Source: Sulfurimicrobium sp. (GTDB lineage: Bacteria > Pseudomonadota > Gammaproteobacteria > Burkholderiales > Sulfuricellaceae). Taken from it: a stretch of 32,048 nt of DNA. The first letter of the stretch is position 1, and each line of letters begins with the position of its first letter. Below, piece after piece: positions 8,518 through 32,048 of the stretch. The notes beneath the pieces were generated by a model that was not told the DNA's origin, did not search any database, and worked only from the letters and a program-made list of their open reading frames with translations. A program made the position numbers and the translations under genes. The stretch lies in the NCBI GenBank assembly GCA_030690835.1, contig JAUYFW010000072.1, positions 1 through 32,048 on the forward strand, written 5' to 3'.

Positions 8518-8562
8518 GTTTTTTAACACTTACCTATATGCGGCAATAGCGTGAACACCAGC

Positions 8563-9417
8563 ATGGAAGGACAAATCATTGCCGCCTATGGCCGCCAGTT
8601 CACGGTAGAACTGCCGGACGGAGTGCATGTCACCTGCGTCACGCGGGGGAAAAAAAGCGGGGCGGCCTGTGGCGACCGGGTGCGAATTGCCCTCACTTCG
8701 CCCAATCAGGGCGTCATCGAAGCCATCCTTCCGCGCCAGTCCCTGCTCTATCGCTCCGACGCGTTCCGGGAAAAAATCATTGCCGCCAATGTCACGCAAA
8801 TCATCATTGTGCTGGCAGCCGTGCCGAGCTTCTACGAAGACCTGGTAAATCGCTGCCTGGTGGCTGCGGAAGCCGCCAGGATCAAGGCACTGATCGTGCT
8901 CAACAAGGCCGATCTGGTTGCCGAGACGGCCCGTGCCATGGAGACGCTGCAACCTTACCGGAATCTCGGCTACCCATTGTTGACCCTCTGTGCCCACCGC
9001 GACATCGAGCCATTGCGGCCCTTCCTGCAAGGCGAAACCAGCGTGCTGGTGGGACAATCCGGCATGGGGAAATCGAGCATCATCAATGGCCTGTTTCCCG
9101 GCATTAATTTGGAAACACGCGAAATATCCAAAACGCTGGATTCCGGCAAACACACCACCACTTTTGCCAAGATCTACCACCTAGACCCCGACAGCCACAT
9201 CATCGATTCCCCCGGTTTGCAGGAGTTCGGCTTGCATCATCTCAAGGCCGAGGAAATCGACCACGCCTTCATCGAGTTCCGCCCCTACCTCGGGCAATGC
9301 AAGTTCAACAACTGCCATCATCGCTCGGAACCCGGCTGCGCCGTGCTCGCAGCCGTGGCGGCAGGCAGCATCCATCGACGACGCCTGGCGGCTTATCAGA
9401 AGCTGGTCAGCGCCTGA
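8563..9417 (+). CDS. rsgA: Ribosome small-subunit-dependent GTPase A
   Basis: A circularly permuted GTPase that acts in late 30S subunit maturation. The order of motifs proves the permutation: G4 NKAD (114-117) comes before G1 GQSGMGKSS (164-172) and G3 DSPG (215-218). The N-terminal OB domain contains GQIIAAYGRQFTVELPDG and TRGKKSGAACGDRV. The C-terminal zinc site is C246, C251, H253 and C259 in GQCKFNNCHHRSEPGC. The track starts at a GTG (8551); I prefer the ATG at 8563 because homology begins with MEGQIIAAYG, but neither start has a clear ribosome-binding site. The last 11 bases overlap, tail to tail, the P-type ATPase gene. Confidence 0.95.
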   Translation: MEGQIIAAYGRQFTVELPDGVHVTCVTRGKKSGAACGDRVRIALTSPNQGVIEAILPRQSLLYRSDAFREKIIAANVTQIIIVLAAVPSFYEDLVNRCLVAAEAARIKALIVLNKADLVAETARAMETLQPYRNLGYPLLTLCAHRDIEPLRPFLQGETSVLVGQSGMGKSSIINGLFPGINLETREISKTLDSGKHTTTFAKIYHLDPDSHIIDSPGLQEFGLHHLKAEEIDHAFIEFRPYLGQCKFNNCHHRSEPGCAVLAAVAAGSIHRRRLAAYQKLVSA

Positions 9418-12052
9418 CCCACCATTTCCTCAGTTCTTCCAGCAGCAGCATGACCAAGGCCATGGGAATCAGCAATAGCCACACTTCCCGCGCAACCGGC
9501 AACGTGCCAAACAGCGCATTGCCCCACGGGGTATAGTCGATCAGCAGGATCAGGGTAATTTCCGCCGCCACGCCGGCGAGGATCAGGCGGTTGTCCAGCA
9601 GATTCCGGGAAAATACCGAATCGCGGTCGCTACGACAAATGAATACGTTGACGACCTGCATCACGATAATCGCGCTCAAGGTGGCGGCAGTTGCCTGGAG
9701 ATAAAGTGCGTCATGCGGCGGCAATTCCGTGCCGTACTGCCATCCTCCGCCATGCAGCACCCAGAAGAAGGCAGCCAGCGCTGCCGCTGCTTCCAGAACG
9801 CCGAGAAACAGGTAGGCGCGCAGCAGCAAGGCACCGTTGAGCAGCCGTTCTCCCCGCGCCCGGGGCGGCTTCTGCATGACGCCAGGGTGGGGCTTCTCGG
9901 TACCCAGGCCAAGGGCCGGCAGCATGTCGGTACCCAGATCCACGGCAAGAATCTGGATCACGGTCAGCGGCAGGGGTATCTTGAACAGGACAAAGGCAAG
10001 ATAAGGCACAATTTCCGGAATATTGGAGGTGAGGATGTAGGTGAGAAATTTGCGGATGTTGTCGTAAACCGCCCGCCCCTCCTCGATCGCCGCCACGATG
10101 CTGGCGAAGTTGTCGTCGAGCAGGATCATATCCGCAGCCTCCTTCGCCACATCGGTACCGGCAATGCCCATGGCGATGCCGATATCGGCCTTCTTCAGTG
10201 CCGGCGCATCGTTCACGCCATCCCCGGTCACCGCGACGATATGGCCTTTTTTCTGCAGCGCGAGGACGATGCGCATTTTCTGGTCGGCCTTGAGACGGGC
10301 GAAGATGATCTCTGGCGCATCGAGTTTGAGCTGCAACTGGTCTGCGGAAAGGTGCTGCATGTCATCGCCCGTCACCACCAGCGGCGCGGCGCACAGGCCG
10401 ATTTCGCGCGCGATGGCCACGGCGGTATGAGGATGGTCGCCAGTGACGATAATCACCTTGATTCCCGCTGCGTGGCATTTTCGGACGGCTTCGGCCACCT
10501 CGGCGCGCGGCGGATCTTCCAGTCCCACCAGACCGCTCAGCGTCAGGCCGCTTTCCAGCTGCCCGCGGAGCTCGCCCTCCGCCACCTTGCGCGAGGCGAA
10601 GGCCAGCACCCGCAGGCCCTGCCCGGCCAGTTCCTGTTCGGCGCGCAGCATGCTTTCCCGCGCCTCCGCGCCAAGCGCCACAATGCCGCCCTCGGTCTCA
10701 ATGTGGGCGCATAGCGGCATGACTGTCTGCAGCGCGCCCTTGGTGTAAAGCACCTGCTCGCTGGCAGTCCGGTGTAGCGTGGACATGCGCTTGCGCTCGG
10801 CGTCGAAAGGCACTTCGTCCACGGCCGGCAGATCCGGCCACTCGCCTCGCGCGTTGTCCGCCATGCCCACCAACGCCACCTCCATCGGATCGCCCAGCCA
10901 GGTGCCGTCATCCTTGCGCTTCAGCATGTGGCAATAACGCGCTGCGGCGAGGAGCTCGGCGTACAGATGCGCCTGTTGCAGCAAATCCTGGGGGGTCTTG
11001 TAAACTCCGTTGACAAAGAGCTGCTTTACTTCCATCCGGTTGAGCGTCAGGGTGCCGGTTTTGTCGGTACAGATGACCGTCGCCGAGCCCAGCGTCTCCA
11101 CCGACGGCAAATGGCGTACCAGTGCGTTGCGCTTGGCCATGCGCTGGGTCGCCATGGCCAGCGAGAGGGTCACCGTGGGCAACAGGCCTTCCGGTACGTT
11201 GGCGACGATAATCCCGATGGCGAAAATGAAATTTTCCCAAAAGGACAAGCCCATCGCCTGGCCGATAAAGAAAAAAAGGACCCCCAGCCCGATCGACAGG
11301 GCCGCCACCAGATGGGAGAGGTGGACGATTTCGCGCTGCAAGGGCGAAAGACGCTCGCTTGGCGCCTGGGTAAGGTGGGCAATTTTGCCGAATTCGGTAT
11401 TCATGCCGGTAGTGAACACCACCGCCTTGCCTTCTCCGGCCACCACGGAAGTACCCGCCAGCAGCATATTGTTGCTGTGCAGCAACTCTTCCACGCTGCT
11501 GGGACTGGCATTGCACGCCCTGGGACGGGACTCTCCGGTGACCGTGGCGGTGTTGACGCGCAGGTCATAGGCCTCGATCACGCGACAATCGGCGGGCACG
11601 TTGTCGCCTTCCTGCAACAGGACCAGATCCCCCGGCACCAGTCGTGCCGCTTCGACCTGCTCCACGCCTCCGCCCCGCATCACCTTGACTTGGCGCGGTA
11701 GCAGCTTGAGCAGCGCCGACAAGGCACGTTCGGCGCGGTATTCCTGCCAGAAGGAAAACAGCCCGTTGATCAGGATCACGCCGAGGATGGCATAGCCCAG
11801 CATTGCCATCCCCTGCCCCGGTGCGCGCCATTCCGCGACAAAAGCCAGGGCGGCGGCGAACCACAGGATCAGGGCAAAAAAGTGGGTAAAACCCTTGAGG
11901 AACTTGAGCCAGAGGGGCTCAAGCGGCAGAGACTCGACCTGATTGGGGCCGAACTCCAGCAAACGGCGCGCGGCTTCCGCCACGGCGAGTCCGTCCGGCC
12001 CACTATGCAGGCTGGCGAGCGCCTCTTCCGCGGTCAAGTGATGGATTTTCAT
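9407..12052 (-). CDS. Type IIC-like (Na,K-ATPase-like) P-type cation pump
   Basis: An 881 aa ATP-driven cation pump of the inner membrane. The actuator domain has TGES (172-175). The phosphorylated Asp is D330 in CTDKTGTLTLNRM. The nucleotide domain keeps YTKGA, and the hinge keeps TGDHPHTA and GDGVNDAPALKKADIGIAMG. About ten membrane segments are seen. The membrane core resembles animal Na,K-ATPase rather than SERCA: M4 ANVPEGLLPTVTLSLAMATQRMAKRNALV, M5-M6 TSNIPEIVPYLAFVLFKIPLPL and ILAVDLGTDMLPALGL, and M8-M10 IVMQVVNVFICRSDRDSVF through LEELRKWWVRR. The Glu of M4 (E288), Asn and Glu of M5 and both Asp of M6 are kept; the M8 Asp of Na,K-ATPase is Asn here. No beta-subunit gene is adjacent. 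The ion (Na+, K+ or H+) is inferred only at class level. Confidence 0.92.
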   Translation of the reverse strand: MKIHHLTAEEALASLHSGPDGLAVAEAARRLLEFGPNQVESLPLEPLWLKFLKGFTHFFALILWFAAALAFVAEWRAPGQGMAMLGYAILGVILINGLFSFWQEYRAERALSALLKLLPRQVKVMRGGGVEQVEAARLVPGDLVLLQEGDNVPADCRVIEAYDLRVNTATVTGESRPRACNASPSSVEELLHSNNMLLAGTSVVAGEGKAVVFTTGMNTEFGKIAHLTQAPSERLSPLQREIVHLSHLVAALSIGLGVLFFFIGQAMGLSFWENFIFAIGIIVANVPEGLLPTVTLSLAMATQRMAKRNALVRHLPSVETLGSATVICTDKTGTLTLNRMEVKQLFVNGVYKTPQDLLQQAHLYAELLAAARYCHMLKRKDDGTWLGDPMEVALVGMADNARGEWPDLPAVDEVPFDAERKRMSTLHRTASEQVLYTKGALQTVMPLCAHIETEGGIVALGAEARESMLRAEQELAGQGLRVLAFASRKVAEGELRGQLESGLTLSGLVGLEDPPRAEVAEAVRKCHAAGIKVIIVTGDHPHTAVAIAREIGLCAAPLVVTGDDMQHLSADQLQLKLDAPEIIFARLKADQKMRIVLALQKKGHIVAVTGDGVNDAPALKKADIGIAMGIAGTDVAKEAADMILLDDNFASIVAAIEEGRAVYDNIRKFLTYILTSNIPEIVPYLAFVLFKIPLPLTVIQILAVDLGTDMLPALGLGTEKPHPGVMQKPPRARGERLLNGALLLRAYLFLGVLEAAAALAAFFWVLHGGGWQYGTELPPHDALYLQATAATLSAIIVMQVVNVFICRSDRDSVFSRNLLDNRLILAGVAAEITLILLIDYTPWGNALFGTLPVAREVWLLLIPMALVMLLLEELRKWWVRR

Positions 12053-12126: not shown

Positions 12127-13527
12127 TTAAGGTTTGTTGCCGTTAATGCGGATGGTCACGAACATCGAACGGTCGCCACGCAAAATGCGCAAGGCAACGA
12201 CTTGCCCCGGGCCATACTGGTTCAACAGCTCCGCAAATTGCTGCAAACCCTTCACGTCCTGGTTGTTCACCGACAGAATGATGTCGCCGCTGATCACGCC
12301 CGCCTGTGCCGCGGCGCCTTCCGCGTCTTCCACCAACAGGCCGTTGCTGATTTTGAGTTCTTTCTTCTGTACATCGCCAAGTTCACTCAAGCTTAATCCA
12401 AGTTTGCCGGTAGCCTTGCCGAGTTTGGCGGAACGCCCCCCACCCTTCTCACCCGGCAGTTCGCCCACGATCAGCGCGACATCCTTGCTTGCCCCTTTGC
12501 GCCACACCTGAAGCAGCACGCGTTTACCCGGCTTGACTGCAGCGACGAGTCTGGGCAGTTCGCTGGAACTCTCGACCGTTTTGCCGTCGAACTTGAGCAC
12601 CACATCGCTCGCCACGAGTCCCGCCTTGTCCGCCGGACTGCCTTTTTCCACGTTGGCGATCAATGCCCCCATGGGCCGGCTCAGCCCGAACGATTCCGCC
12701 AGTTCCCTGGTCACCTCCTGGATCATCACGCCCAGCCAGCCGCGGTTGACCTTGCCACCGGCGCGCAACTGGTCACTGATGTCGATCGCCACGTCGATGG
12801 GGATGGCGAAGGACAATCCCATGTATCCGCCGGTGCGGCTCAGGATTTGGGAATTGATGCCGACCACTTCGCCTTTCATGTTGAATAGCGGACCACCTGA
12901 GTTGCCGGGGTTGATCGCCACATCGGTCTGAATGAAGGGCACATAATTTTCCTGCGGCAACGAACGCCCCTTGGCGCTGACGATGCCGGCAGTGATGCTG
13001 TTATCGAAGCCAAAAGGCGAACCGATCGCCGCCACCCATTCGCCCACCTTGAGCTGATCCGGCTTGCCGATCATCACCCTGGGCAAATTGCTCGCCTCGA
13101 TCTTGATCAGAGCCACGTCGGTCCTGCGATCGCTGCCGATGACCTTGGCGGGAAATTCACGCTTATCGGTGAAGCGCACAGTGACCTCATCCGCCGCATC
13201 CACCACGTGGGCATTGGTCAGGATATAACCGTCCGCGCTGATGATGAAACCGGAACCCAGGGAACGCGACTGAAATTCGCGCGGCCCCTTCTGCCCCTTG
13301 CCCGGCGGCATGAAACGGCGGAAGAAATCGAACATCGGATCGTCTTCCGACAAATGGGGATTCTGGGGAAGGACGCTCTCGTTACGCACGGTCTGTGTGG
13401 TGCTGATATTGACGACCGAAGCGCCGTGTTTTTCCGCCAGTTCGCTGAAATCGGGCAAATCCCTGGCGTAGGAAAAAGCAGTCAAGGATACAAAAAGCGC
13501 AAAAAAGGCGAATAAACGTTTCATCAT
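12127..13527 (-). CDS. mucD: Periplasmic Do-type serine protease/chaperone (DegP/MucD)
   Basis: A trypsin-like protease of the HtrA/Deg family that removes misfolded envelope proteins. The 466 aa protein has a signal peptide (MMKRLFAFFALFVSLTAFSYA), then the protease domain with catalytic triad H107 (LTNAHVVD), D137 (RRTDVALIK) and S210 (NPGNSGGPL), then two PDZ domains (roughly residues 255-345 and 370-460). It is the last gene of the sigma-E operon, as in the algU-mucABCD arrangement. ATG codons at 13527 and 13524 both lie after AGGAGGT; the reading frame overlaps the rseC stop, so the two are translationally coupled. A separate membrane-anchored DegS-type site-1 protease is not present in this window. 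Confidence 0.94.
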   Translation of the reverse strand: MMKRLFAFFALFVSLTAFSYARDLPDFSELAEKHGASVVNISTTQTVRNESVLPQNPHLSEDDPMFDFFRRFMPPGKGQKGPREFQSRSLGSGFIISADGYILTNAHVVDAADEVTVRFTDKREFPAKVIGSDRRTDVALIKIEASNLPRVMIGKPDQLKVGEWVAAIGSPFGFDNSITAGIVSAKGRSLPQENYVPFIQTDVAINPGNSGGPLFNMKGEVVGINSQILSRTGGYMGLSFAIPIDVAIDISDQLRAGGKVNRGWLGVMIQEVTRELAESFGLSRPMGALIANVEKGSPADKAGLVASDVVLKFDGKTVESSSELPRLVAAVKPGKRVLLQVWRKGASKDVALIVGELPGEKGGGRSAKLGKATGKLGLSLSELGDVQKKELKISNGLLVEDAEGAAAQAGVISGDIILSVNNQDVKGLQQFAELLNQYGPGQVVALRILRGDRSMFVTIRINGNKP

Positions 13528-14000
13528 TCATGACCTCCTGCAAATTTGACAAAGTTTTGAGAAAAGACCCGCCGCAGGACGACCGGCTGGAACTGGCTAT
13601 TCGTTCCCGCACCGGCGCTAATCAATTTCAAGGCCACAAAACCCACAACCAGCCCGACGAGCACCCCGCCAACGGCATAAGCGTCCTGTAAGCGAGCCGG
13701 CGCCAGCCACCCGCCCAAAATCGCGCCCGTCAGCAGGAACGCCAGCGGCAACAGATACACCAGCAGCGAACTCTTGAGCAGCGCCGCTTCTTCCATACCG
13801 ATCACCACGCGCTCACCCAGCGCCGCGTCAATCGGATTGAGCACCTTGAATGATGAGGTTTTGCTGCCCAGCAACTGGCTCAGGGTGGACGTGCCGCAGC
13901 CTTCCTTGCCGCTGCAACTGCCACACGCCGAGGCACGCGAGGTTTCCACGAACACGCCCTCCTGCCCGATTTTTACGATCACACCTTCTGCTTCCAACAT
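13524..14000 (-). CDS. rseC: Sigma-E factor regulator RseC/MucC family
   Basis: A 158 aa inner-membrane protein with the family's cysteine-rich N-terminal cytoplasmic part, CGSCSGKEGCG (C26, C29, C35), which suggests metal or Fe-S binding. Two membrane helices follow (LLKSSLLVYLLPLAFLLTGAILGGWL and AVGGVLVGLVVGFVALKLI). RseC is described as a positive modulator of sigma-E activity, with related members helping reduce SoxR or flavin-electron-transfer complexes. It sits third after the anti-sigma pair, 15 bases downstream of rseB. Its end overlaps the start of mucD by 4 bases. Confidence 0.92.
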   Translation of the reverse strand: MLEAEGVIVKIGQEGVFVETSRASACGSCSGKEGCGTSTLSQLLGSKTSSFKVLNPIDAALGERVVIGMEEAALLKSSLLVYLLPLAFLLTGAILGGWLAPARLQDAYAVGGVLVGLVVGFVALKLISAGAGTNSQFQPVVLRRVFSQNFVKFAGGHE

Positions 14001-14015
14001 TTGAAATCCCGCCTA

Positions 14016-14972
14016 TTATTTTGCGATAAAAGACACCGAATTGCCGATCTGCGTCACGGTCGCCGCCGGCACCTCGCCCAGCACCGTCACCTGATATTCG
14101 CCGACAGGCCTGGTATAAACGTTGATGGCGCCCTGACTGGAAAGGCCGGACACGGGTTTCAGGATTCCCGCCAGAGGCTCGATGAAGATGGATACCGCCG
14201 CCAGTTGATCGGAAAATACCATATGATTCGTGGGGAATTTTTTGCCCGGAAAGGCGCGTTTCAACGCCATGATTTTCTTGAATCCGGCCGGCGGCGATTT
14301 GACCACCCAGCCGGGATCGACCTGTGCTTCCCTGGCTTGCATGCTCACCGGTTGCTTGACAGCATATTTCGACTTCAACTGCTCGGGATCGATGTTGCCG
14401 CCGATGCTGGCCTGGGTAAAGAAAAATTGATCCACCACTTCATTTTTCTCATTCAGGGTGCTGGCCTTGAGCAGCAGGCCGCTGGCGCTGTCGGCGCACA
14501 AGCGGTGTCCATACCGGTAGATATCGCGTGGCTCCAGCATGACATTCTGACAATCGTATCCGGCCACGCGCTCCATGCCACCCAGTTTGATCGCGTAGAT
14601 TTCGCCGATACCCGACAACTGCTCGGGCAAAAGGGCCGGAAAACTCTTGTGCGCCTTGCGCCTTTCCACGATCACGGCCTTGTTTTCCAGCATGTAACAG
14701 ACCACTTCATCGTTGTCGCGGATAATCTCGCGCGGCGGACCATCCAGCACTTCGAGCTTTTCATGCTCGCCGCTCGCGTCCGAGAGGTGGACGATGCGTG
14801 AAGTTTTCATGTAACCGTCGCGCCGATAAACGAAAGTACCGCTGTAATTGATGCGGTGAGCAGCGGAAGCCATCTTTTGCAGCCAGGCAGAGGCGTCCCC
14901 CTCAGCCTTCTCAGCCAGGGCGAAGCCTGGCAAAAACATCAGGATCAGCAATACATGGCGCGTCTTTCTCAT
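14016..14972 (-). CDS. rseB: Periplasmic sigma-E regulator RseB/MucB
   Basis: Binds the periplasmic part of the anti-sigma factor RseA and shields it from site-1 proteolysis; it lets go when it senses mislocalised lipoprotein or lipopolysaccharide. The 318 aa product has a signal peptide (MRKTRHVLLILMFLPGFALA) followed by the LolA-like N-terminal domain (WLQKMASAAHRINYSGTFVYRRDGYMKTSRIVH) and the smaller C-terminal domain (from about VDPGWVVKSPPAGF to the end). Its ATG overlaps the rseA stop in an ATGA junction, so the partners are made together. Confidence 0.94.
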   Translation of the reverse strand: MRKTRHVLLILMFLPGFALAEKAEGDASAWLQKMASAAHRINYSGTFVYRRDGYMKTSRIVHLSDASGEHEKLEVLDGPPREIIRDNDEVVCYMLENKAVIVERRKAHKSFPALLPEQLSGIGEIYAIKLGGMERVAGYDCQNVMLEPRDIYRYGHRLCADSASGLLLKASTLNEKNEVVDQFFFTQASIGGNIDPEQLKSKYAVKQPVSMQAREAQVDPGWVVKSPPAGFKKIMALKRAFPGKKFPTNHMVFSDQLAAVSIFIEPLAGILKPVSGLSSQGAINVYTRPVGEYQVTVLGEVPAATVTQIGNSVSFIAK

Positions 14973-15466
14973 CGGGCGTTGACCTCACGGATTTCAGAAA
15001 CCGTGCGGATATATGGCGTCATGCCCTGCATGGCTACACCGGGCGAGTATTCCTGATGCGCGAGCAGGTAGGGATTGACGTCGGCGCTGGCGAGTTCCAC
15101 TGGCGCTGCTTTTGCCAGAGTCATCTCGGTGGGCGCATGCACCGCGCCCGTTTGCAATACGGCCCAAACCACCAGCCCCACCGCCGTGACGGAAGCAGCG
15201 GCTGACAAGGCTATGGTGCGCGGGCTGCGCTTGGGCAGACGATGAGGTGCCAGCACGGTCGGCTCTTCCGCCAGACTCGCACTGAAACGCCCCATGAAGC
15301 CGTCGGAAACAGAAGAAGTGTCGCGCAAGACATCGCCAATCAGATGGTAGGCGTGCCACTCGCGTTGCGCTTCCGAATCCTGCAATGCGCCGAAGAAACG
15401 TTGCACTTCCGCATCGTCCAGTTCGCCATCCATCATCTGTGAAATTTGCTCATTCATCCTTACCAT
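14969..15466 (-). CDS. rseA: Anti-sigma-E factor RseA/MucA
   Basis: A 165 aa single-span inner-membrane protein that holds RpoE inactive. The track ORF begins at 15562, inside rpoE. The start at 15466 (MVRMNEQIS) is chosen because AAGGAGACAAGAG lies seven bases before it; ATG 15457 has no correctly spaced site. The N-terminal cytoplasmic domain (QISQMMDGELDDAEVQRFFGALQ through WHAYHLIGDVLRD) is the sigma-binding fold; the membrane helix is about residues 78-100 (IALSAAASVTAVGLVVWAVLQTG). The periplasmic tail is where site-1 cleavage and RseB binding would occur, and RseP, encoded 7.5 kb away, would cut within the membrane. The start overlaps the rpoE end by 7 bases. Confidence 0.92.
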   Translation of the reverse strand: MVRMNEQISQMMDGELDDAEVQRFFGALQDSEAQREWHAYHLIGDVLRDTSSVSDGFMGRFSASLAEEPTVLAPHRLPKRSPRTIALSAAASVTAVGLVVWAVLQTGAVHAPTEMTLAKAAPVELASADVNPYLLAHQEYSPGVAMQGMTPYIRTVSEIREVNAR

Positions 15467-16059
15467 CTCTTGTCTCCTTGCGTATCCAGCAGCGGCCGCA
15501 GTTTTTCCGAAATCGCATCGCGCGCACGAAAAATACGCGAACGCACCGTACCAATTGGGCAATTCATGACCTGCGCGATATCCTCGTAACTTAAACCTTC
15601 GATCTCACGCAGGGTAATCGCGGTTCTTAACTCTTCTGGCAAGGCGTCCACTGCGGAGTTCACCGTTTCGGCAATTTGTTTGCTCATCAATGCATTTTCC
15701 GGCGTATTGATGTCGCGCAACTCGTCGCCGCCCTCAAAGCCCTCGGCCTCTTCATTGTCGTATATGGTTACGGTCGGCGCGCGCCGCCCCTGCGCCACCA
15801 GGTAATTCTTGGCGGTATTGATGCCAATACGATATAGCCAGGTATAAAACGCGCTCTCGCCCCGGAATGAAGGCAAGGCGCGGTAAGCCTTGATAAAGGC
15901 TTCCTGCGACACGTCCTCCACTTCCGCCGCATCGCGAATAAAGCGCGACAACAGCCGTGCCAGCTTGCGCTGATACTTGGCCACCAACAACTCGAAGGCG
16001 TGCTTGTCACCGCGCTGCGCACGCTCGACCAGTTGCTGGTCAATTTCCCGGTCACCCAT
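15460..16059 (-). CDS. rpoE: RNA polymerase sigma-E factor (RpoE/AlgU, ECF family)
   Basis: Directs RNA polymerase to envelope-stress genes. The 199 aa protein shows region 2 ([66 protein letters not shown]) and region 4 ([41 protein letters not shown]), with the short linker of ECF sigma factors. It heads rpoE-rseA-rseB-rseC-mucD, all tightly packed. nadB is divergent, as in many gamma- and betaproteobacteria. A sigma-E-like promoter is visible about 75-100 bases upstream, consistent with autoregulation. Confidence 0.96.
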
Positions 16060-30890: not shown

Positions 30891-30986
30891 ACTGACCGAC
30901 AGCATTCCACCCTCGGTTACAAGTCGCCGACCCGCTTCCTGAACGACTGGATCAGTGCTCAGCATGAGGAAAAACTGGTAGCATGA
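30891..30986 (+). pseudogene. IS3-family transposase, C-terminal remnant
   Basis: Within the 68-codon ORF at 30780-30986 only the last 31 residues are recognisable: TDRQHSTLGYKSPTRFLNDWISAQHEEKLVA. This is the closing part of the integrase catalytic core of IS3-family OrfB proteins (R.HS.LGYK.P..F). The DDE residues and everything before them are missing, and the upstream codons show no similarity, so the ORF start at 30780 is chance. It is a dead fragment. Confidence 0.7.
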
Positions 30987-31644
30987 AAACCGGCCCTTGG
31001 AAGACTAAAAATAGGGGGAAGCTCAGTTTCAATCCCGCTTGTTTGATGCCCGCCAGCATCTTGGCGCGAAATACTTTCGCCAGCGCTTTGTGGCCGAACA
31101 GGTAACCGCCTTCTTTGTTGCGCCACCGCCGCTGTTTTTTGTCGAATGCGGCCCCCGGCATCACCAGGTGCACGTGCGGGTGGTAATCCAATCGGCGGCT
31201 GTGGGTGTGCAGCACCGTCACCGCGCCGGTGCTGCCGCGCAACTTCCTGTCGTTCTGGCTGAAGGTGTTGACGGTCTCCCACGCGCTGCGGGTGATCAGG
31301 TCGTACATCACGCGCTGATGCTGCCAGGCCAGCGCGCGGAATTGCGCGGGCAAGGTGAAGGTCACCATGAAGTATTTGCCGGGCACCCGCTTTTGCATCT
31401 GCTGGTCTATCCAGTGTTGCGATTCGTGCGCCTGGCAATGCGGACACGATCGGTGCCCGCAGGAATGCGGCAAGAAGCGCTGTTCCTCGCAGCCGTCGCA
31501 GGCGAGTTCCATCTTGGGGCTCATGCTGCTGCGGCATAGCTGGAAGGCGTTTAACGCCGCCCATTGGCTGGGCAGCAGGCGATGGCCCTGTTGCGCGATC
31601 AGCTCGGTCGCATGGGTTGCCACAATGTGCGCCAGCCGGATCAT
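30952..31644 (-). pseudogene. IS91-family HUH transposase, 3' truncated
   Basis: The real start is ATG 31644 ([16 protein letters not shown]), not the track start at 32040, which lies in another frame over the recombinase gene. Residues 45-75 form the zinc-binding domain, with cysteines C49, C52, C62, C67 and C70. The rolling-circle metal motif is H157-V-H159 in YHPHVHLVMPG. The recognisable protein stops near residue 209 (LKLSF, about base 31015); the last 20 codons read backwards through the IS3 remnant. IS91 transposases are nearly twice as long and carry their catalytic tyrosines after the HUH motif, so this copy cannot be active. ATGA overlap with the recombinase stop shows that the pair formed an operon. 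Confidence 0.85.
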
Positions 31645-32048
31645 TTGATCTCGCCCCAGCTGATCTGGATTTGCCCCATCAACTGGTTGATACGTGCGCC
31701 ACTGGAGCGCTGCTGCTGTTCGGTGAGGTGGGTGTAACGGAGGGTGGTGAGGATGGATTGGTGTCCGAGGATTCTTTGCACTTCCAGCAGGTCGACGCCC
31801 GCTTCGATCAGGTGAGTTGCATAGGAATGGCGCAAGCTGTGCGGCGTAATGTGTTTTATAAACCGCACTCGCGGGTGACCTGGCGCAAAGTGGCCTGGAC
31901 GCCGCCGCGATCCAGCGGGGTGGTGGCCAGATGCGCTTTTTTGAGCCCGCACTTCCGGTTGGGGAACAACAACGCGGGGTTGCGGTGGGTCTGCCAGAAA
32001 CGGCGCAGCACCTGCAAGGTGTTCTCCGGCAACGGGACAAAACGGTCG
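31641..32048 (-). pseudogene. Tyrosine recombinase (IS91-associated integrase), frameshifted, partial
   Basis: The C-terminal catalytic half of a XerC/D-like recombinase. From the window edge one frame reads [32 protein letters not shown] through QVTRECGL and hits TAA at 31858-31856. The next frame continues with [49 protein letters not shown]. One missing base near 31855-31862 explains the switch. HSLRH supplies the His and Arg of box II, LGHQS the next His, and LRYTHL the tyrosine nucleophile. The first catalytic Arg would be beyond the window. The frame break could be true decay or a sequencing error. Confidence 0.82.

Follow-up and report, generated by a model that had tools for sequence, protein, structure and literature searches.

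A gene in the analysed 32,048-nucleotide stretch of Sulfurimicrobium sp. DNA (hereafter, the window) encodes a genuine pump of the type IIC branch of P2 ATPases, the side of the family that includes animal Na,K-ATPases, and belongs to a known, uncharacterised bacterial kind. This pump may well be a Na+(H+)/K+ exchanger that works without a beta subunit through ion sites I and II, with a third site unlike that of animals and an expected stoichiometry of about 2:2. New here are the invariant asparagine of membrane helix M8 in company with a glutamate in M7, and a histidine that recurs in M5 of relatives.

A pump gene of the type IIC branch

The gene occupies positions 9407–12052 on the minus strand (all coordinates refer to the window) and forms an open reading frame of 881 codons from ATG, uninterrupted by a stop. 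Its assignment as a type IIC-like P2 ATPase of 881 amino acids draws on the reading frame itself, Pfam, NCBIfam, sequence and fold searches of the PDB and a phylogenetic tree. The Pfam domains of P-type ATPases were each recovered above their cut-offs, and the motifs TGES (residue 172), DKTGT with the phosphorylated Asp330 (11063–11065, minus strand), KGA (438), DPPR (513) and TGDGVNDAPAL (609) are in place. A structure predicted with 40 homologues (pLDDT 80.6, pTM 0.70) has ten membrane helices, of which M4 and M6 are broken, as expected for an ion-binding P2 pump. The preliminary description of this DNA had already given the reading frame and the motifs VANVPEGLL in M4, YILTSNIPE in M5 and VDLGTDMLP in M6, all of which we recovered, and it had read M8 (VMQVVNVFICR) and M9 (GVAAEITL) correctly.

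In the PDB sequence search (HMMER), the best match was the Na,K-ATPase alpha subunit (8zyj, 560.7 bits), ahead of both the bacterial Ca pump LMCA1 (476.4 bits) and SERCA (414.6). For a bacterial type IIA control the order was reversed (LMCA1 665, Na,K-ATPase 445). The 49 best fold matches of the predicted structure were all Na,K- or H,K-ATPases, with TM values of at most 0.87, the highest being to K+-bound E2 states. The top NCBIfam family was likewise IIC (TIGR01106), although its score of 635.7 bits misses the curated cut-off of 946.1; IIA2 reached 605 bits and IIB 460.9. Five homologues also rank IIC first, and IIA controls rank IIA2 first.

A careful maximum-likelihood tree of 54 proteins, which holds no IIB or methanogen sequences and whose animal and Ca-pump references were taken from the PDB-search alignments and lack short loops, split the IIC side, animal pumps included, from IIA with support of 99/96. 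The clade of the window pump, a second bacterial group (L033–L042) and the animal pumps were joined at 95/93, with the animal pumps nested inside the bacterial IIC set. In AU tests, forcing the window pump's clade together with IIA was rejected (p-AU 6e-5), as was a bacteria-only clade that excludes the animal pumps (p 0.001). On the tree and the first of these tests, the reading as a IIA Ca2+ pump was rejected. Thus, the type IIC affinity proposed earlier was borne out, the protein lying outside IIA by the tree and the AU test and outside IIB by HMM rank only. The likeness to animal pumps had also been called almost block for block. It is strong for M4–M6 and weak for M8–M10 (about 26 bits), so that this wording holds best for M4–M6.

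Relatives and genomic setting

At least 522 stretches match the window pump. Among the matches listed, most of the named relatives belong to the Beta- and Gammaproteobacteria, plus a few Verrucomicrobia MAGs, and they include Sulfuricella, Gallionella, Thiobacillus, Accumulibacter, Methylobacter, Methylomonas and Pseudomonas linyingensis; the nearest named one among them is Sulfuricella denitrificans, with 77% identity. The distribution is patchy: of 398 genomes sampled from the phylum, 13 had a match at E <=1e-160, and among 289 Verrucomicrobiota genomes surveyed, 6 had one at E <=1e-165, in five cases with about 41% identity and the branch unassigned. The SYGQ beta-assembly motif occurs in none of the 106 bacterial homologues of the pump, and the beta subunit (PF00287) was not found in its genome and 20 relatives, in a search run without a positive control.

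The same genome encodes a second paralogue (L043, G000:C280:20534-23221), 64% identical to the window pump, as well as a IIA pump (G000:C155). In relatives of this paralogue (L098, L102, L107 and L114), the pump gene is immediately preceded, on its own strand, by a DnaJ/CbpA-like gene and an open reading frame of about 105 amino acids. The second proteobacterial IIC group, L033–L042, shares about 44% identity with the window pump and is sister to animal Na,K-ATPases (100/99), to which the window pump is less close. A further pump, L139 on plasmid pSF45436d of Sinorhizobium fredii, has 58% identity and is annotated as two overlapping reading frames, perhaps owing to a frameshift.

Upstream of the pump, at a distance of 74 bp and on the same strand, lies a gene for a mucD/degP-type protease (12127–13527, minus strand). 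It belongs to the rpoE-rseA-rseB-rseC-mucD envelope-stress operon (12127–16059, minus strand), of which the pump is apparently the last gene. No promoter- or terminator-like sites were recognised in the 74-bp gap, so that co-transcription with this sigma-E operon is possible. On the other side, the convergent rsgA (8551–9417, plus strand) overlaps the 3′ end of the pump gene by 11 bp. The mucD-pump-rsgA order is conserved only within the pump's genus and therefore says little about the pumped ion. Across the pump family there is no conserved partner gene from which the ion could be read, and other neighbours that recur are confined to particular lineages; nothing in the gene context ties the pump to Na+ or K+. 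Neither RNA switches nor tRNAs were found in the window, and an IS91-type transposase gene (30952–32040, minus strand) lies past rpsB/tsf, where the contig ends. A K+ link beside a related pump was seen in one case only, on plasmid p1 of Streptomyces fungicidicus, where a deep IIC-side pump (L147) comes after a gene for a universal stress protein and directly before two genes of TrkA-type K+ uptake.

Cation-binding residues

Residue counts were taken over 106 non-redundant bacterial homologues, and Na,K-ATPase (NKA) numbering is that of the pig enzyme. Sites I and II are intact, as had been claimed from the M4 glutamate, the M5 asparagine and glutamate and the two M6 aspartates. Glu288 in M4 (11189–11191, minus strand; NKA Glu327) belongs to site II. 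The M5 segment YILTSNIPE (residues 672–680; 10013–10039, minus strand) covers NKA Tyr771, Thr774, Ser775, Asn776, Pro778 and Glu779, and DLGTD in M6 (residues 705–709; 9926–9940, minus strand) covers Asp804, Thr807 and Asp808. Glu288, Tyr672, Glu680, Asp705 and the M8 residue Gln799 (NKA Glu327, Tyr771, Glu779, Asp804 and Gln923) are present in all 106 homologues, while Asn677 (NKA Asn776) is kept in 103 and Asp709 (NKA Asp808) in 104.

In 10 of 96 close relatives (L016, L057, L059, L064, L069, L092, L109, L119, L120 and L121), the position of NKA Ser775 in M5 holds histidine, which takes no fewer than five independent changes in the tree; several of these relatives also alter the M4 asparagine (NKA Asn324). 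Because H,K-ATPases have lysine at the same M5 position, such replacements may represent repeated shifts towards H+/K+ exchange.

At the third site, the HMMER alignment of M8 runs without gaps ('vmqvvnvficrsdrdsvf' over 'VVQWADLIICKTRRNSVF'), which sets Asn802 (9647–9649, minus strand) on human alpha3 Asp923, that is, pig alpha1 Asp926. The earlier placing of this asparagine at a site III position thus holds. The same alignment puts Glu831 in M9 (9560–9562, minus strand) opposite Glu954, confirming that the M9 glutamate is retained; it occurs in 104 of 106 homologues and is absent in IIA. Gln799 (9656–9658, minus strand) is the invariant M8 glutamine noted above. The third site had been presented as altered in this particular pump, a view that did not stand: Asn802 is asparagine in 106 of 106 homologues, which rules out a lineage-specific loss, and asparagine also occupies this M8 position in SPCA1, several IIA pumps and the majority of the remaining IIC-like bacteria and haloarchaea.

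On the tree, M8 aspartate needs a single change, which falls on the animal branch; M9 glutamate likewise needs a single change, which separates IIC from IIA, and this residue marks the IIC branch. No M8 aspartate was seen among the bacterial IIC-like and IIA sequences fetched from plasmid searches. M8 asparagine is the usual condition in bacterial members of the branch, and Asp926 was probably gained towards the animal pump. Change counts by themselves leave the direction unfixed, and the Asp/Asn polarity is set by animal sequences alone; rooting by outgroup makes a gain of aspartate the simpler reading. Since methanogen P2C pumps are said in a review to keep all three Na+ sites (PMC10654040), this gain may predate animals.

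Two further M8 positions bear on the third site. That of Trp924 is Val800 in the window pump and Val, Ile or Met among relatives, while that of Cys930 remains cysteine (Cys806), where H,K-ATPases have an arginine that neutralises the M8 aspartate. In human alpha3, the disease substitution Asp923Asn reduces the affinity for Na+ more than 100-fold while that for K+ stays the same, and Cys930Arg turns the Na,K-ATPase electroneutral with its Na+ dependence kept (PMC9463140). The importance of Asp926 is debated, its role having been quoted as 'relatively minor' (PMC5233988).

A second difference, absent from the preliminary description, lies in M7, where Glu754 (9791–9793, minus strand) aligns without gaps with Gln854 of the Na,K-ATPase (Gln873 of the non-gastric H,K-ATPase). 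One paper reports this glutamine among the coordinating residues of site III (PMC9463140), while other lists of site III residues omit it (PMC6746705, PMC5233988). In the clade of the window pump, 93 of 96 sequences carry Glu here and 3 carry Gln, and in the second bacterial group 5 have Glu and 5 Gln. Most pumps of these two groups therefore pair M7 Glu with M8 Asn, in contrast to M7 Gln and M8 Asp in the animal pump. It seems from these alignments that the site III carboxylate has moved to M7 rather than been lost. The changed stoichiometry or different ion that had been predicted from the M8 asparagine is thus no more than possible, since M7 Glu may keep a carboxylate in the third site. It is conceivable, if rather doubtful, that the M7-carboxylate/M8-asparagine pairing is the earlier arrangement, preserved in these bacteria, and that animal 3:2 transport arose by moving one charge between helices.

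Mode of transport and known systems

In the reading that we prefer, the protein would be an inner-membrane type IIC pump without beta, in which ATP phosphorylates Asp330. In E1, sites I and II would load Na+, or possibly Na+ or H+, from the cytoplasm for export; in E2P, the same two sites would load external K+, leading to dephosphorylation and to K+ being carried inward. The ions and the direction are suggested by homology, as intact sites I and II point to K+ counter-transport and export of Na+ or H+. The third site would be without the M8 aspartate and Trp924, with Gln799, Glu831 and Cys806 retained and Glu754 added. No high-affinity third Na+ site of the animal type is then expected, and exchange would be electroneutral (about 2:2) or of reduced stoichiometry. 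Electroneutral 2:2 exchange is a first guess, made by analogy with Asp923Asn and Cys930Arg, and it is not secured because Glu754 could rebuild the third site. No transport or ATPase data for bacterial IIC members were found in the literature.

Were Glu754 to supply the carboxylate that Asp926 gives in animals, the pump could be an electrogenic 3 Na+/2 K+ exchanger. The reported coordinating role of Gln854 (PMC9463140), the near-constant M7 glutamate beside invariant Asn802 and the conservation of Gln799, Tyr672, Ser676, Pro679, Cys806 and Glu831 are in favour of such a site. We nevertheless regard it as unlikely: the ligand role of Gln854 comes from one paper, Trp924, which the H,K pump needs in order to build site III, is replaced by Val, Ile or Met, and half of the second bacterial group pairs M7 Gln with M8 Asn, which indicates that the M7/M8 exchange is not obligatory. 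In addition, 3:2 export would presumably be expensive at bacterial membrane potentials.

A pump lacking a Na+-selective third site might instead admit protons to sites I and II and act mainly as an H+/K+ exchanger. It would fit that the Trp924 position carries an isoleucine-like residue, as it does in the two H,K-ATPases (PMC9463140), and that some relatives have the M5 histidine, but strict H+ selectivity has been linked to both the M5 lysine and the M8 arginine (PMC9463140), and the window pump has Ser676 and Cys806 at these positions, which makes this quite improbable. We give very little credence to export of Ca2+ or another divalent ion, the activity of most bacterial P2 ATPases. The IIA2 score is near that of IIC (605 against 636 bits) and M8 asparagine is common to IIA pumps; however, the tree and the AU test speak against it, the M4 sequence Asn-Val-Pro-Glu-Gly-Leu-Leu and the M9 glutamate are of IIC type, and the same genome has the separate IIA paralogue.

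The origin of 3 Na+ : 2 K+ transport in the Na,K-ATPase is an open question, and a review of 2023 raises the question of what function prokaryotic P2C pumps have at all (PMC10654040). The bacterial design of the third site could reveal how transport of three Na+ arose in the animal pump. A widespread beta-less family with intact sites I and II carries a natural version of alpha3 Asp923Asn, for which the M7 glutamate is a possible compensation. Members with M7 Glu, M7 Gln, M5 Ser or M5 His form a comparison set for stoichiometry and ion choice.

The Na+,K+-ATPase proper exports 3 Na+ for 2 K+ taken in and is ouabain-sensitive. Its alpha subunit is the best match of the window pump in both sequence and fold and shares the M4–M6 motifs, the M8 glutamine and the M9 glutamate. 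However, identity is about 34%, the window pump is without SYGQ and below the TIGR01106 cut-off, and it has Asn for Asp926, Val for Trp924 and Glu for Gln854. Gastric and non-gastric H+,K+-ATPases are likewise of type IIC and have a non-Trp M8 residue between two site III positions, but their M5 Lys791/794 and M8 Arg949 are Ser676 and Cys806 in the window pump, and their M8 Asp is Asn.

Bacterial type IIA Ca2+-ATPases (LMCA1 and others) resemble the pump in P2 fold, length, lack of beta and, often, M8 asparagine; they differ in M4 (Ala-Ile-Pro-Glu), in the Pro778 position, which is mostly Gly, in lacking the M9 glutamate, and in falling on the other side of the tree. Bacterial and archaeal IIC relatives have been reported before, although none was found characterised in the literature: 44 bacterial and archaeal Na,K-ATPase alpha-like sequences (PMC9609216) and the methanogen P2C pumps (PMC10654040) share with the window pump the same branch, the absence of the beta-assembly motif and an uncharacterised function. 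The archaeal alpha-like pumps are said to keep three Na+ sites, whereas the bacterial clade of the window pump has an invariant M8 asparagine.
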